The translations under genes were made by a program, and so were the position numbers. DNA of 45,881 nt, taken from IMG/VR virus record IMGVR_UViG_3300046507_000232, positions 1 through 45,881 of that record; one strand, written 5' to 3'. This document shows, piece by piece, positions 1,065-13,222 of this stretch (within the stretch, counting starts at the first letter, position 1; the number at the start of each line of letters is the position of its first letter). The notes under the pieces are model-generated. The model ran no database searches. It saw only the letters and a list, made by a program, of their open reading frames with translations, and had not been told where the DNA came from. This DNA comes from a virus.

Positions 1065-3164
1065 TCAGTGCGTGTCAGCCCAGCTTTCGCCAACCGACCA
1101 CTCACTATCGAGCGGGACCCTGAAGCCGTAAGGCTCGCCCGCTTTACGCGCGCAGGCGACAAGGATGTCACCGACTTCCTTTTCGTAGCCCTCGCGGACG
1201 CAGACTTGGATTTCATCGTGTACCCATAGGACGAAGACGAACTTCCCGTTCCACGGGTTGTCCCAATCGTATCCCAGGCGCTCGCAGCATTCCTCGAAAG
1301 CGTCAGCTAACCAACGCTTGCAGATGATTGCTCCAGCGGACTGGATCATGAAGTTGAGTGCGGAGTGATCGGAGCGGATAGGAATGATCCGGCCGTCGAG
1401 ACCGATGATACGTCCCTTGCGAGACACCTGTTCACCAATCTTCTTCTGAAGCGTGCCGAAGCCGTCGATGCGCGTCAGGAAGGCGTTTCTGATCGCCTTG
1501 CCCACTTTGCGCAACAACCTCTCGCCTACGACGCCTTCTCCGAAGAACTTGACGTACAGCTCGATGCCTTCGTCGCCGCCGTTACGCCGCGCGTTGAGCA
1601 AGGCTTCGTAGATAATCTCGCCCGCCTTCTCGTCACCGCAGCCGTAGATGTAGGCGTAGATGAAACGCTTCGACCCGTCCTCGCGAACGATGGTGTGGCA
1701 CTTGTTGTGCTTGTCGCGCTCACCTTCCGCTAGGCCCATGACGTTGGCGTGCAGCCAGTGAGGATCGCCGTCGATGACGACCTTCATGTACTTGCCGTTG
1801 TCGAGCGGGAACAGATAGTGAGCCAACCCGCGCAGCTCTAAGCCTTGCTGGTCAGCGCCTAAGAACTTCCAACCATTCAGCTTCGGCTGGCCCGCGACTG
1901 AGAACAGTTTGCGGAACGCAACGCCGTAAGGCTTCTTCGCGGACGGCACCTGCCCCAGGTTCGGGAACATATGCGCCGCGCGCGACGTGATGGTCCCCAT
2001 GGGGTTGATCACGCCGTGGATCATGCCGTCATCTTTGACGCAGTCGATCAGGGGGTACTTGCTGCTCTTGCCGCCAACGAGTTGCGACAGTCGCTTGTTG
2101 ATCATCAGCAGCTCAGCGAGGCCTTCCATCTCTGGGAAGCGTGCTGAAATACTTTCGATCACTTCTTCGTCCATTGACGGCTTACCGCCATCTGTGAACT
2201 TCGTTGGCTTCCACCCGCGATCCATCAGCACCTTCGAAAGGTGATCCGACGAACCAGGGTTGAACATTACCTGCTTGATCTTGGTGCAGGGATAGCCACG
2301 CACTTCCTGGGGAAACTTGCTGCCCTCGGGAATGCACGTCCAGAAGTCCTCCTGTCCTCCCCAGTATCCCGACTTCTTGTTGGGACGCTTCGGAGTGAAC
2401 AAGGCCTTCGACGGGTTCGGGCTGATGGGTGCATACCAAAAGCCGTAGGTCTCCTTGAGCTTCGTTTCGAGCACGTCTTTGCGTCCGACCAGCTCGGCAT
2501 GAAGCTCACCTGCTTCCTCGCGGTTGAACGGGACGCCCGCCTTCTCCATCGCATCGCATACGCGGGCTACACGATGCTCCAGCTCCACAGCGTCTGGCGA
2601 ATACGCATCCGCCTGCATGTGGTCCCAGAGCGCGAGGTTCGTAGAACGGTCCTGCAGCATGTACTCATGCATGTCCTCGTTCCATTCGCCCCACACGAAC
2701 TCCTGGATTGCCTTCTCGTCCGTGATGCCCTGCGCGATGGCCTGAGCACGACGGAGCTGTGCGTAGTCTCCTTTGGGATTGCCGAGGCGATAGCCCCAGG
2801 CTCCGATGGTGTGTCGCCCCTGATAGTCTCTGCCGGGGGGCATCTTGCCAGCTGCAACGAGTGCCTTGTCTGTCTTCTTCAAGTTCGGGAAGATAAGCCG
2901 CGAGAGGACCATCGTGTCACGCACGAGGACCCCGGGCCTTGGCTTCCACTTCGTCAGCTTCTTGATCAAAGGACCGTCGTGGCGTTGCCAGTTGTGTCCG
3001 ATGATCATGTCTGCTTGGTCGAGGAGCGCGATCATCTGATCGGTCTCACCTGGCTTGAAGTCCCAAGACTTGCTCCTGTCGTCTACGTCAACAAAACAGG
3101 AGCAATGTATCTTGGTGGCATTCGCGACGAACCCGTTGCTTTCGGTGTCGCCTAGTAGTCTCAG
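1065..3164 (-). CDS. DNA polymerase, T7 gp5-like (family A)
   Basis: This is the replicative family A DNA polymerase. The N-terminal 3'-5' exonuclease domain opens with GDTES (exo I). Later come motif A (GADQQGLELRGLAHY, around residue 440), motif B (KRFIYAYIYGCGDEKAGEI) and motif C (WVHDEIQVC), all close to T7 gp5. No ATG, GTG or TTG precedes the exo I motif. A CTG at 3164, overlapping the primase stop as CTGA, gives MRLLGDTES, with the same spacing to the catalytic Asp as T7 (MIVSD). That start yields 699 residues against 704 in T7. The first ATG at 3035 would delete exo I, so I reject it. CTG initiation is inferred. Confidence 0.95.
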   Translation of the reverse strand: MRLLGDTESNGFVANATKIHCSCFVDVDDRSKSWDFKPGETDQMIALLDQADMIIGHNWQRHDGPLIKKLTKWKPRPGVLVRDTMVLSRLIFPNLKKTDKALVAAGKMPPGRDYQGRHTIGAWGYRLGNPKGDYAQLRRAQAIAQGITDEKAIQEFVWGEWNEDMHEYMLQDRSTNLALWDHMQADAYSPDAVELEHRVARVCDAMEKAGVPFNREEAGELHAELVGRKDVLETKLKETYGFWYAPISPNPSKALFTPKRPNKKSGYWGGQEDFWTCIPEGSKFPQEVRGYPCTKIKQVMFNPGSSDHLSKVLMDRGWKPTKFTDGGKPSMDEEVIESISARFPEMEGLAELLMINKRLSQLVGGKSSKYPLIDCVKDDGMIHGVINPMGTITSRAAHMFPNLGQVPSAKKPYGVAFRKLFSVAGQPKLNGWKFLGADQQGLELRGLAHYLFPLDNGKYMKVVIDGDPHWLHANVMGLAEGERDKHNKCHTIVREDGSKRFIYAYIYGCGDEKAGEIIYEALLNARRNGGDEGIELYVKFFGEGVVGERLLRKVGKAIRNAFLTRIDGFGTLQKKIGEQVSRKGRIIGLDGRIIPIRSDHSALNFMIQSAGAIICKRWLADAFEECCERLGYDWDNPWNGKFVFVLWVHDEIQVCVREGYEKEVGDILVACARKAGEPYGFRVPLDSEWSVGESWADTH

Positions 3165-4849
3165 AACTTGATATCCTCTTGCTGATTGTTGGAGGTGACG
3201 TGGGGAGGCGTGATGTCTCCGTCGTCGTCCAGGTCACGAGCACCACCCCCTTCGAACGGTGATGACAATTCGTAATGACCTTTCTCGACGTTCCACTTCA
3301 GCGTATCGGCTTCGCCTGTATCGCCTGTGATGCGACATTTGAGAGAACGAAGCAGAGCGTAGAGCTTCTTGTCGTCGTCCTGCTGGTCTCGCTCGGCCGC
3401 AAGCACGTTGAACGACAGCTGCTCGATGGACGCTGAGCCTCGCAAATCGTTGAGACTGATTTGTCCACCTTCGTTGAAGTTCTTCCCTTGGGAACGCTTG
3501 AGATGCACGATGGCGATGACGCCAACACCCGTCTCCTTCACGAACGACGCGAGACGCGTCATCAGGATGTCGATGTCCTTGCGTTCACCTTCCGAACCGC
3601 TTTCGAGGCCGGACGTGACAATGCTGATGTGGTCGAGCACGATGAACTTGCATCCCGACGCTGCCATGTAGTGCATCATCGTGAGCAGGCGGTCGCTCTT
3701 GAGCGAACCGAAGTGATCGTAGAACAGCATGTTGTCCCAGACGACAGCCGCGAGCGCAGCGTCCCACTGGTCGTCCGTAATGCTCTCAGGGTTCGCTAGG
3801 ATGCTCTTGAGGGGCACGCCGTTGAACAACGCCACGTAGGCGCTGACAGACGTTTCGTTGTCTTCCTCAAGATAGATGTTGCCAATCTTCAGGCCGTGCT
3901 CGACGCGCATGTGATACGCGATGTCTCGCGCAATCGTCGTCTTGCCGATACCTGAGCCTGCGCAGATGGTGGTGACCTCGGCTTCCCGTAGTCCCATCCA
4001 CATGCCGTTCAGCTTCGGATACGGAAGCTCGTAGCCGGCACGCTTCTTTGCCTTCAGGCGCTCCCTAGTGAACTCGCGTCCCTCGCGGATACCATCAGGC
4101 CTCCAGACCTTCGCGTCCCAGAAGGCGCGCACGATGGCTCCAGCGCCGTACTGCTTGTCCATCAGCGTGGCGTTTGCGTCCTTCAGGGGCACGGTCATAA
4201 TCTTGACCTTGCCAATGGGCAGCATGTCGCAGACGCGCTTCAGGGCTTCTTGGCCCTTCTCGTCGTTGTCGAAGCACAGGACGATGCTCTCGAACCTGCA
4301 GAGCTTCTCGTAGTCCTTCTTGATTGCCTTCTCGGCTGAACCCCATCCGTTCGGAAGCGATCCAGTCGGCCACTTGTTCTCGAACACCTGGGAGACCGAC
4401 ATCATGTCAATCTCGCCTTCGGTGATCACCACGGACTTGCCTTTGTCAGGCCACAGCCACGAACCAATGATCCCTGGGTCCTTGCCGGCCGGACCTATCC
4501 AGGTGAAGTTCTTGTCCTTGTCGCGAAACTTTTGCCCGAGGAGTTCGCCGCGATCCCCGATGACGTTCTGAATGTGGACGCGTTCGCCAAAGCGCTCACC
4601 GATTTGATACCTGAACTTCTTGCAGGTCTCCTCAGTGATCCCGCGCTTGATCAGGTCTTCGTATCGACCAGCTACGGGCTTCCAGTCCTTCGGAGCTTCG
4701 GCCTTCGCTGTGGCCGGGGCAGAGCCATCGGCTCGCCCGGGCTTTTCACAGCTGAAGCAGAACGTGCTCCCGTCGTCGTATGTCGCGTTGGCGTCCGACG
4801 ATAGACACTCAGGCCGAGGGCACGGCCCTTTGCTTACTACGGTTCCCAC
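3161..4849 (-). CDS. DNA primase-helicase, T7 gp4-like
   Basis: This bifunctional primase and replicative helicase has 562 residues, close to T7 gp4. An N-terminal zinc-binding region (CPRPEC near residue 10 and CFSC near residue 32) is followed by a TOPRIM fold (EGEIDMMSV; FDNDEKGQEA). A RecA-type helicase follows, with Walker A GSGIGKTT and Walker B FIVLDHISIV. The first zinc pair is spaced C-x4-C instead of the C-x2-C of T7. The start is a GTG at 4849 with AGGAG just upstream. The stop overlaps the inferred polymerase start, so the two are probably translationally coupled. Confidence 0.96.
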   Translation of the reverse strand: MGTVVSKGPCPRPECLSSDANATYDDGSTFCFSCEKPGRADGSAPATAKAEAPKDWKPVAGRYEDLIKRGITEETCKKFRYQIGERFGERVHIQNVIGDRGELLGQKFRDKDKNFTWIGPAGKDPGIIGSWLWPDKGKSVVITEGEIDMMSVSQVFENKWPTGSLPNGWGSAEKAIKKDYEKLCRFESIVLCFDNDEKGQEALKRVCDMLPIGKVKIMTVPLKDANATLMDKQYGAGAIVRAFWDAKVWRPDGIREGREFTRERLKAKKRAGYELPYPKLNGMWMGLREAEVTTICAGSGIGKTTIARDIAYHMRVEHGLKIGNIYLEEDNETSVSAYVALFNGVPLKSILANPESITDDQWDAALAAVVWDNMLFYDHFGSLKSDRLLTMMHYMAASGCKFIVLDHISIVTSGLESGSEGERKDIDILMTRLASFVKETGVGVIAIVHLKRSQGKNFNEGGQISLNDLRGSASIEQLSFNVLAAERDQQDDDKKLYALLRSLKCRITGDTGEADTLKWNVEKGHYELSSPFEGGGARDLDDDGDITPPHVTSNNQQEDIKF

Positions 4850-5301: not shown

Positions 5302-5760
5302 CTACTTTCTCTTTCGGGATTGCTTGATGTCTTGAATCCACGCGGCCGGCACGACGCCTTTGTCCGACCACGTGAAGCCGTGATCGGTCGCCCACTTCGC
5401 GTAGGTCGTCTTGCTGCCTTTGTAGATTGGTGTGGATGCGCGCTGGAAGACGATACGGATGTCCAGCTCAGGATGTTGCTCCTTGAGCAGGATCAGCTTC
5501 TGTCGTTCCTTTGCGCCATCGGTCGATGGTTGCTTAAAGCGAGGATTGCCGCCTCCAAAGCGGCCCTTGGCTTCAATGATGATCGGACAACCGTCGAACG
5601 AGAAGTCGGGAAGGTACTTCGCTTCGCGCTCGGGAACGGTGTAACGTATCCACTGACTTTCGTGGCCATACGCTACACCGTCCGCATCGAGCTGCTCCGC
5701 TACCTTTTTCTCAAGCCCTGACCGGAAGGTAGGCTCGATACTCAGTGCGGGTTTTGACAT
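5302..5760 (-). CDS. Endonuclease I, Holliday junction resolvase (T7 gp3-like)
   Basis: This junction-resolving enzyme debranches replicating and recombining phage DNA before packaging and helps break down host DNA. It has 152 residues against 149 in T7. The PD-(D/E)xK active site is visible as E17 (FRSGLEKKV), D52 (YLPDFSF) and E63-A-K65 (IIIEAKGRF). Its ATG shares one base with the stop of the SSB gene (TGATG), so the two are coupled. The gene lies in the conserved SSB-endonuclease-primase order of T7-like phages. Confidence 0.95.
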   Translation of the reverse strand: MSKPALSIEPTFRSGLEKKVAEQLDADGVAYGHESQWIRYTVPEREAKYLPDFSFDGCPIIIEAKGRFGGGNPRFKQPSTDGAKERQKLILLKEQHPELDIRIVFQRASTPIYKGSKTTYAKWATDHGFTWSDKGVVPAAWIQDIKQSRKRK

Positions 5761-6335
5761 CAGAACGGAATATCGTCGTCCATATCCTGGCTCTGGTGAG
5801 GAGCCGCTGTGGTCGTGTCCGGTTCGTCGTCGGCGTCGTCCCCGTTATAGGTGAAGCCTTCTTCTTCTTCGAAGCGGTTGGCGTCACGCTGTTTGAGGTC
5901 GAGCAGCTGCACGGAGTTGATGTAGAGGTTGATGCCTCCACCGAAGCCCGTGTACGGGTTGACGGTCACGTCCAGCTTGAGGGTTGAACCGCCACCGATG
6001 ACGACCTTCGCGGGGACCTTGTTGCCCTTTGCGTCGAACACGGGCGGACGATACTTCTCACCCGAGGTCGCTTCCAGATGAAGCTCCCCGGTTTTCTTAT
6101 CCTTCTTCCACGGCAGCTTGCCGTCTTCCAGGTCGAAGTCCTTCAGCTGCTGCTTCAGGTAGTCATCGACCTTGCGGAAGTTCACGTCGTCGAACTTGAT
6201 ACGCGTGATGTACCGACGTTTCTCAGCGCCGCTCGGACGCCCCTTCTTGTCGGTCGGCTGGTAGACATCGACTTCGTTCAGCTTGGGCCAAACGGCGATG
6301 CCTTTGGGAAGGATAATCGTAACTTTCTTCGTCAT
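5760..6335 (-). CDS. Single-stranded DNA-binding protein, gp2.5-like
   Basis: This 191-residue protein fits the T7 gp2.5 type of ssDNA-binding protein. A beta-rich OB-fold region (residues about 5-145) contains FDDVNFRKVDDYLKQQLKD and a VNPYTGFGGGINLYINSVQ strand pair. It is followed by an acidic disordered tail ending DMDDDIPF, which in this class contacts the polymerase and helicase. It precedes endonuclease I in the same operon. A 90-bp leader upstream holds a GACGCG/CGCGTC hairpin. Confidence 0.9.
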   Translation of the reverse strand: MTKKVTIILPKGIAVWPKLNEVDVYQPTDKKGRPSGAEKRRYITRIKFDDVNFRKVDDYLKQQLKDFDLEDGKLPWKKDKKTGELHLEATSGEKYRPPVFDAKGNKVPAKVVIGGGSTLKLDVTVNPYTGFGGGINLYINSVQLLDLKQRDANRFEEEEGFTYNGDDADDEPDTTTAAPHQSQDMDDDIPF

Positions 6336-12073: not shown

Positions 12074-13222
12074 TCAAGCACTTCGCGTGATGCTCAGAAC
12101 ACGTGCTGTCTCCGCTGGAGCGCGGTCCCCACGGGAACGCTCAACTTTTTTTGCCGCTTCAAGTTGATCCTCGGTGTCCACGTGGTCGTACATCATGGAC
12201 GCCTGAATGCTCTTATGCCCCAGCATTTGCATGCGAATTTTCATATCGACGCCCTGCTTCCGCAGACGCGTGTTGCGTGTGTGGCGCAGGCTGTGGATCA
12301 CAAGGTTCGACGGATACCCACAGATTTTCGCTGCAGTCTTGAATTGGTTTAACAATCGGTATCTTTTCGGCAGCTGCCCAGACGCGATTATCGCTCTGAT
12401 TTCGCGAGCAAGTTCCGGTCTGATGTAGACCGTTCTGGCATCATTGTTCTTGGTCTGATCCTCGTGGAGAACAAGCCAGCCGACCGCCTCCTCGCCCTCC
12501 TGCTCGACGATGATTTGCGCGGGCGTCAGCCGCGTTAGCAGCTCACTGAGGCGCAGGCCCGTCTCGACCAGCACACGGACGCACACGGCCTCCACGTGGT
12601 GTCCACGGCTCTCCATGACGCGTAGGATTGCGTCCTCCTGGTCGTAGCTCTGCAGGATCGCGCGCTTGCGCCGCGTCTGCTTCTCGGGGAGCAGAGGGAT
12701 CGCGGGCTTGAACGGGATGACCCGATTGAGCACGGCGAACTGCAGCACGGCTCCAGCGGCGTTCAGGTAGCGGTTGATGGTGGCCGGGCTGAGCTTGTCA
12801 GCGCCAGCCTGCGGTCCCCTGAGCTTCCCCGTGGCGCTCGGCGGGCGCTTCTCCAAGCTCTCGACGATTTGCTCCATGGTGTCGCGTGTCACGTCCCCGA
12901 TGTCCACGTCACCGATCACGCTGACGCAATAGTCCACGCGCTGGATGATGCTGCAGTCGCGGCCGGCGTGCCATTTCTTCTTCGGCCCTCCCGCCTTCTT
13001 GCAGTCCTCAGCGACCTCGCGGAACGTCCGGCCAGTTCCGAGAGGCTGCAGCGTTGGCGGCTCCTCGCCCATCAGCTTGACGTAGGTCTCATAGCCCTGC
13101 GCGGCCTTCATCGTGTCGAAGCGACGACGAAAGCGCTTCTGCGGCTTCCCCTTGGGCGTGACGAGGGCTTCGCCGTAGAACCCCCCCGTCAGCTTGCCGT
13201 CTCGTTTCTCAGCGTATGCCAT
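12074..13222 (-). CDS. int: Tyrosine recombinase, phage integrase
   Basis: This 382-residue integrase has all catalytic residues: R224 (TGLRLSELL), K258 (DQTKNN), H310-x-x-R313 (HSLRHTR), H336 (LGHKS) and Y345 (MMYDHV). Residues about 65-170 form the core-binding domain. The basic N-terminus (GKPQKRFRRRFD) may bind arm sites. It should catalyse recombination between attP at 12003-12064 and a host tRNA-Ser gene. Its ATG overlaps the stop of the 54-residue gene (TAATG), so it is co-translated downstream of the repressor. Confidence 0.96.
   Translation of the reverse strand: MAYAEKRDGKLTGGFYGEALVTPKGKPQKRFRRRFDTMKAAQGYETYVKLMGEEPPTLQPLGTGRTFREVAEDCKKAGGPKKKWHAGRDCSIIQRVDYCVSVIGDVDIGDVTRDTMEQIVESLEKRPPSATGKLRGPQAGADKLSPATINRYLNAAGAVLQFAVLNRVIPFKPAIPLLPEKQTRRKRAILQSYDQEDAILRVMESRGHHVEAVCVRVLVETGLRLSELLTRLTPAQIIVEQEGEEAVGWLVLHEDQTKNNDARTVYIRPELAREIRAIIASGQLPKRYRLLNQFKTAAKICGYPSNLVIHSLRHTRNTRLRKQGVDMKIRMQMLGHKSIQASMMYDHVDTEDQLEAAKKVERSRGDRAPAETARVLSITRSA

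Follow-up and report, generated by a model that had tools for sequence, protein, structure and literature searches.

A probable CTG start codon for a T7-type phage DNA polymerase, overlapping the helicase stop, and recurrent near-cognate starts in its clade

The virus record IMGVR_UViG_3300046507_000232 of IMG/VR, analysed over its whole length of 45,881 bases (the window), carries a T7-type replication block on the minus strand, with a gp2.5-like single-strand-binding protein, endonuclease I, a gp4-like primase-helicase and a gp5-like DNA polymerase. The polymerase frame raises the question of where translation of this gene begins. A preliminary description of the DNA had stated that no ATG, GTG or TTG precedes the exonuclease motif I (exo I) in this frame and had proposed a CTG overlapping the stop codon of the upstream gene as the probable start. 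At the nucleotide level, both the missing standard start and the overlap were confirmed. The minus strand reads CAAGTTCTGAGACTACTAGG from 3170 to 3151, with CTG and stop overlapping as CTGA at 3164-3161. The open frame spans 3233-1065, and none of the 28 codons between the upstream TGA (3236-3234) and the exo I Asp (GAC, 3149-3147) is ATG, GTG or TTG. The interval of 3161-3170 given earlier for the start held CTG and stop, but also two codons before CTG.

Counted from CTG, the polymerase comprised 699 amino acids (aa), and residues 3-699 aligned to residues 2-704 of the T7 DNA polymerase 6n7w with an E value of 1e-104. The family A polymerase domain PF00476 was matched with E 2.7e-26 and 92.9 bits (cut-off 34.3) and phrog_17 with E 9.8e-117. 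The T7-like length and the T7-like distance to the exo I Asp that had been claimed were both found: the T7 chain has 704 aa, and its Asp5 and Glu7 aligned with Asp6 and Glu8 of the CTG-started product, which carries a T7-type Asp-x-Glu motif near its N-terminus. A start at the first ATG (3035-3033), 38 codons past the Asp, would delete the catalytic Asp-Thr-Glu (DTE), as stated before. Upstream of CTG, the Shine-Dalgarno-like AGAGGA showed a duplex energy of -5.8 against the 16S tail sequence used.

Relatives were collected in a first IMG/VR scan (six loci), four further IMG/VR scans and one scan of bacterial and archaeal genomes. Together with the window, the 208 loci gave 209 sequences, and the polymerase N-terminus was obtained from 199 of them; the other ten were the partial polymerases L018, L019 and L166 and seven pattern-fetched loci. 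The 199 N-termini represented 131 distinct start regions, 59 of which belonged to the clade, for which at least 42% local BLAST identity to the window was required; the other 72 fell below this threshold. The 5'-cut L125 was dropped, leaving 58 clade rows, including the borderline case L093, a short match on a Zooshikella contig. L002, L008 and L101 denote one contig, as do L005, L097 and L147.

Clade codon positions were counted back from the exo I Asp. ATG, GTG or TTG was located five or six codons before it in 39 of the 58 clade start regions and was lacking there in 19. Seventeen of these 19 members carried CTG, ATT, ATA or ATC at -6 or -5, and the remaining two, L131 and L132, carried GTT CTA. 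Near-cognate codons were present at -6 in 14 and at -5 in six of the 19, compared with zero to three at each of the remaining codons between -16 and -1. CTG alone was found in five members (the window, L097 and L101 at -5, L118 and L104 at -6), all of which overlapped an upstream stop as CTGA. Three members had ATT and CTG side by side (L117, L169, L096), three had ATT (L152, L164, L129), five ATA (L108, L141, L122, L109, L119) and one ATC (L197). Over the whole open frame ahead of the Asp, a standard start was absent from eleven of the 19 distinct sequences, the window included; in L152, a stop immediately ahead of ATT CTA leaves none. All 19 showed a Shine-Dalgarno match 5-9 nt upstream of the start place chosen by the analyst, with a median energy of -6.6 versus -5.8 in the 39 standard members (Mann-Whitney p 0.009, kinship ignored).

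The closest relatives, L002 and L005, kept the CTG, and the 38 nt beginning with it were identical to the window. A small gene and not the helicase lies directly upstream of the polymerase in L005; it ends in GGC TGA, again giving CTGA. In L004, CTG was positioned one codon further up, also as CTGA and behind another small gene. L003 carried ATG at the codon of the window's CTG (TAGATGCGC), and L006 and L007 also had ATG. The window lacks a standard start before the conserved N-terminus, and its CTG stands at the place of the relatives' ATG, GTG or TTG, beyond chance. The comparison of start regions in related phages, which had been proposed as a check, supported the suggested start, and initiation of the polymerase at CTG 3164-3162 is well supported. 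Outside the clade, a standard codon was present at -4 to -8 in 68 of 72 start regions, the exceptions being L080, L206, L089 and L082. L206, L208 and L209 carried AAAGGAG before an ATC at -4, with no ATG nearer to the Asp than 18-19 codons, and their polymerase is possibly a further case of a near-cognate start.

In the first 24 codons after the start, the window and L101 differed by six synonymous and no nonsynonymous changes. The corresponding counts were 14 and 1 for the window and L107, 7 and 1 for L108 and L197, and 5 and 3 for L141 and L108. The codon differences were mostly synonymous, and the N-terminal residues are thus conserved at the protein level beginning with the proposed start. 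A quick maximum-likelihood tree was calculated from 56 of the 58 clade rows; L093 and L119 were too short. The window grouped with L097 and L101 (CTG) and then with L107 (ATG), with an SH-aLRT value of 99 for the four. L152, with ATT and the polymerase directly after the helicase, was placed among ATG and GTG rows with an inserted gene. At least eight changes between standard and non-standard starts were required on the tree, so near-cognate starts are recurrent in the clade and not a single accident. The features of the locus are listed in Table 1.

Table 1. Positions of the polymerase start region and adjoining features in the window.
Feature	Position	Strand	Remark
DNA polymerase, family A, T7 gp5-like	1065..3164	minus	699 aa counted from CTG
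Proposed polymerase start codon CTG	3162..3164	minus	near-cognate; place of the relatives' ATG/GTG/TTG
Exo I motif Asp-Thr-Glu, residues 6-8	3141..3149	minus	aligned to T7 Asp5-Ile-Glu7
Stop TGA closing the polymerase frame upstream	3234..3236	minus	
First standard start ATG in the polymerase frame, rejected	3033..3035	minus	38 codons behind the exo I Asp
Shine-Dalgarno-like AGAGGA	3174..3179	minus	9 nt from CTG; GAGGA within helicase Glu-Asp codons
Primase-helicase, T7 gp4-like	3161..4849	minus	562 aa, GTG start
Primase-helicase stop TGA	3161..3163	minus	4-nt CTGA overlap with the polymerase start
Helicase C-terminal tail codons Glu-Asp-Ile-Lys-Phe	3164..3178	minus	CTG begins with the C of Phe TTC
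Comparison junction, last base of the single-strand-binding protein Phe codon + TGA / endonuclease I ATG (TTCTGATG)	5758..5763	minus	

The upstream gene had been described as a primase, which is correct in part, as it encodes a full T7-type primase-helicase: it aligned to T7 gp4 (6n7i) with E 6e-98 and matched PF03796, PF21268 and PF13155. Its protein ends in the acidic, Phe-terminated tail QQEDIKF*. The final codons and stop read GAG GAT ATC AAG TTC TGA, where GAGGA is the Shine-Dalgarno core and TTC TGA contains CTG. The same 18 nt (3178-3161) thereby encode the helicase tail and stop, most of the ribosome site and the polymerase start codon. The preliminary description had recognised the overlap of CTG and stop, but had missed that CTG is built from the terminal Phe codon of the helicase plus its stop, and that such starts recur in the clade. 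All 58 helicases located in the clade ended in Phe (50) or Leu (8), mostly behind an acidic stretch such as EDIKF, GDIPF, EDAPF or EDQKF. The terminal Phe matters in T7 gp4. By analogy, the helicase tail of the window is a candidate polymerase-docking tail; the acidic tails of T7 gp4 are described as binding basic patches on gp5 (PMC12593628). A similar acidic, Phe-ended tail was present in the single-strand-binding protein of the window, and the next gene, endonuclease I, starts at an overlapping ATG.

On the sequence comparison, the polymerase is very probably initiated at the weak near-cognate CTG, probably via termination-reinitiation, which would keep polymerase below helicase. A ribosome finishing the helicase at the overlapping TGA would put the initiator tRNA on CTG; alternatively, a ribosome bound at the Shine-Dalgarno sequence inside the last helicase codons would initiate there. 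The product would be the 699-residue polymerase, presumably with Met as its first residue. Polymerase output would be low and tied to that of the helicase because CTG is a very poor start, and a low dose would suit a replisome of a hexameric helicase and few polymerases. Coupling of the polymerase to the helicase by termination-reinitiation is likely. All 64 codons have reportedly been measured by Hecht in 2017. According to PMC11497404, CTG accounts for 0.024% of bacterial starts and has 0.86% of ATG activity. Reinitiation at short overlaps is described as well known and as dropping steeply with distance (PMC10666635). Hypothetically, the CTG start would also be sensitive to initiation factor IF3, which is reported to repress non-canonical starts in infC and in sigR with GTC (PMC5472188); excess IF3 is reported to lower reinitiation without a Shine-Dalgarno sequence and to hinder M13 strongly (PMC2268962). 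Reinitiation at non-canonical codons in PMC4648390 concerns a eukaryotic setting and was not used as support.

Several points weigh against this reading. An activity below 1% of that of ATG fits poorly with an essential enzyme, unless output from CTG is increased by reinitiation or by the host. The effect of IF3 on reinitiation was published for sites lacking a Shine-Dalgarno sequence. The window site has such a match, and any IF3 effect would therefore have to act through the codon. Eight of the 19 non-standard members had a standard codon at least 11 codons ahead of the proposed start, including TTG 18 codons before CTG in L005/L097 and 11 codons before ATA or ATC in L108, L197, L141 and L119, and N-terminal extensions are possible in these eight. 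Adjacent ATT and CTG were indistinguishable as start in three members, and GTT CTA was the sole candidate in two. Finally, some accessory genes at the same junction also lack a usual start, which weakens the idea of a throttle.

This last point leads to the strongest rival explanation, which was judged only just short of evenly balanced: CTG would have no value of its own. On this view, the helicase has to end in Phe; a TTC codon ahead of TGA or TAA then creates CTG or CTA in the -1 frame, with which the next gene has to cope. Where the polymerase abuts the helicase, ten of 13 starts were non-standard, nine of them behind a Phe-TTC stop; the standard starts were L107 (TAGATG), L167 (TTTTGA giving TTG) and L175 (ATG). 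Codon bias alone predicts TTC, which made up 85% of the Phe codons in ten abutting polymerases. TTC was used in ten of 11 abutting Phe-ended helicases, which is unsurprising by itself at such a bias, the chance of ten out of ten being 0.19. By a rule-based count, 27 of the 45 detached loci had, at the helicase stop, an accessory open reading frame (ORF) of at least 50 codons in the -1 frame. Five of these 27 were free of standard codons between -1 and +10, and another five had only a later one. The endonuclease VII-like genes in L182, L190 and L127 had none in their first 40 codons. For the cytosine methylase in L122, the Pfam match starts with residue 2 after CTG and the first standard codon is TTG at +5, so this gene seems to start at CTG or at the preceding ATT.

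On the other side, a silent change of TTC to TTT before TGA would yield TTG. Standard codons right at the junction were more frequent in accessory genes (17/27) than in polymerases (3/13); with kinship ignored, Fisher's p was 0.004 without the five loci with a later standard codon and 0.04 when these were counted as non-standard. The rule-based count replaced an earlier one made by eye, and the contrast was weaker afterwards. The Phe codon was TTT in 13 of 23 detached helicases, leaving out an outer clade with GTG starts, versus one of 11 abutting helicases (p 0.011, kinship ignored), seven of the 13 TTT cases being close relatives. With the outer clade included, the values were 15/39 versus 1/11 (p 0.08, kinship ignored). 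Abutment to the helicase as the cause of non-standard starts was not significant in random pairings of independent rows, with 3.6 agreeing and none disagreeing on average (sign test, median p 0.125). The ATA and ATC starts in L108, L197, L141, L119 and L122 follow the upstream stop at a distance of 4-5 nt, and no overlap dictates them; the helicase tail explains none of the ATA/ATC members other than L109. A throttle under selection is a hypothesis. The far-reaching form of this idea is doubtful, namely that the lineage keeps the polymerase start weak on purpose, with the docking-tail DNA serving as ribosome site and start, a low fixed ratio set by helicase-finishing ribosomes, and host IF3 control linking replication to the translational state of the host.

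The other explanations fared worse. Translation from a downstream standard start, ATG 3035 or later, would give a phage without the exo I motif. Although ATG 3035-3033 is what a scan restricted to standard starts returns, residues from CTG onward are conserved as protein with synonymous change, and the first downstream standard codon is differently placed among relatives, making this start very improbable. Fusion of helicase and polymerase by -1 frameshifting in the overlap, with CTG as no start at all, is equally improbable. The polymerase frame is open for 70 nt into the helicase gene, but no XXXYYYZ slippery heptamer was found in the helicase frame of the 13 abutting loci, and the upstream-frame residues of the window and L002 differ by eye. 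In L152 the overlap is only 4 nt with a stop directly before ATT CTA, and a different gene lies upstream of the polymerase in L004 and L005. Programmed -1 frameshifting was rejected, with no slippery heptamer in the 13 abutting loci and, by eye, no conserved upstream frame. A sequencing or assembly error hiding a normal start is the least probable of all: the window is one IMG/VR phage record of letters alone, but the identical CTG occurs in two other contigs, and an error is very unlikely because the open frame is devoid of standard starts in 11 distinct clade sequences.

In 45 of the 58 clade loci with a located helicase, genes lie between the helicase stop and the polymerase start, which marks a gene-exchange hotspot. 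Its content comprised small ORFs, endonuclease VII-like genes, the cytosine methylase in L122 and a PAPS-reductase-like gene in L197 (E 0.00016, just under the Pfam cut-off). Upstream genes in L108, L197, L141 and L119, dissimilar by eye, shared the C-terminus DPSG(K/N)TGA*, and L122 had DTSGKTGA*; the last codons of these tails carry the Shine-Dalgarno sequence of the polymerase.

Across the window, 21 conserved ORFs, the polymerase included, aligned ahead of their first standard start in comparison with four relatives. Seven of them were inspected besides the polymerase, and none had a high-identity stretch like the polymerase's 43 residues. As candidates for near-cognate starts these seven were discarded and read as neighbour overlaps, as leads of short length or as a gene truncated where the window ends. 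The check covered the polymerase and seven of the 21 flagged ORFs, so uniqueness within the genome was not established. A phage integrase gene (12077-13222, minus strand; PF00589, phrog_1) was present in this T7-like genome with its own RNA polymerase, which suggests a temperate phage. In the two closest relatives, the RNA polymerase match (G001:C1:26527-29121 and G002:C1:25044-27638) contained one in-frame TGA, which may precede the true start or be situated at the end.

Among known systems, T7 gp5 and gp4 (Autographiviridae) resemble the window proteins over nearly their full length, including the acidic, Phe-ended helicase tail. More than 2000 phage records matched the polymerase, and annotated starts were looked at in five. 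These have a gene between helicase and polymerase and a polymerase annotated from ATG (three), TTG or GTG, whereas the window has a 4-nt overlap and CTG. The annotated starts were ATG in RHph_I20, with a long N-terminal lead, ATG in RHEph21, TTG in Pasto and ATG in CRP-804. In Rhizobium phage RHph_I20 (L210, 2408-2513), the polymerase start is located 35 codons before the exo I Asp, a lead that the window polymerase lacks. In Desulfovibrio phage ProddE (L214, MZ666938.1, 6412-6556), the deposited GTG lies behind the exo I DIETDGLL and the frame is open upstream with ATG codons; this polymerase annotation is probably too short. Starts other than ATG, GTG or TTG, easily misannotated and repressed by IF3, are also described for infC and Streptomyces sigR (PMC5472188). 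Those are cellular regulators backed by experiment, whereas the window start belongs to the replicative polymerase of a phage, is placed in an overlap of two genes and is known from sequence. Termination-reinitiation of the ATGA type likewise involves a 4-nt overlap of stop and start and protein partners of one complex, which is described for many pairs (PMC10666635); the window has CTGA in place of ATGA, GTGA or TTGA. ORF10 of phiB124-14 has a start annotated as CTG (PMC3338817), in a single ORF, while the window start is backed by a clade-wide comparison. In literature searches on CTG, near-cognate or AUU phage starts and on Autographiviridae start codons, no such polymerase start was among the matches listed. 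Near-cognate initiation in a translational overlap is known in principle; its recurrence across a phage clade in a replicative polymerase and the dual coding with the helicase tail are new as far as the literature searched shows.

For this clade, gene finders restricted to ATG, GTG and TTG would lose the exonuclease motif or add false N-terminal extensions. If the reading is true, an essential polymerase translated from CTG, ATT, ATA or ATC in about one third of the clade would provide a strong example from nature of near-cognate initiation in overlaps. It would also lend itself readily to testing whether protein ratios are set by weak starts or whether such starts confer IF3 sensitivity on a phage.

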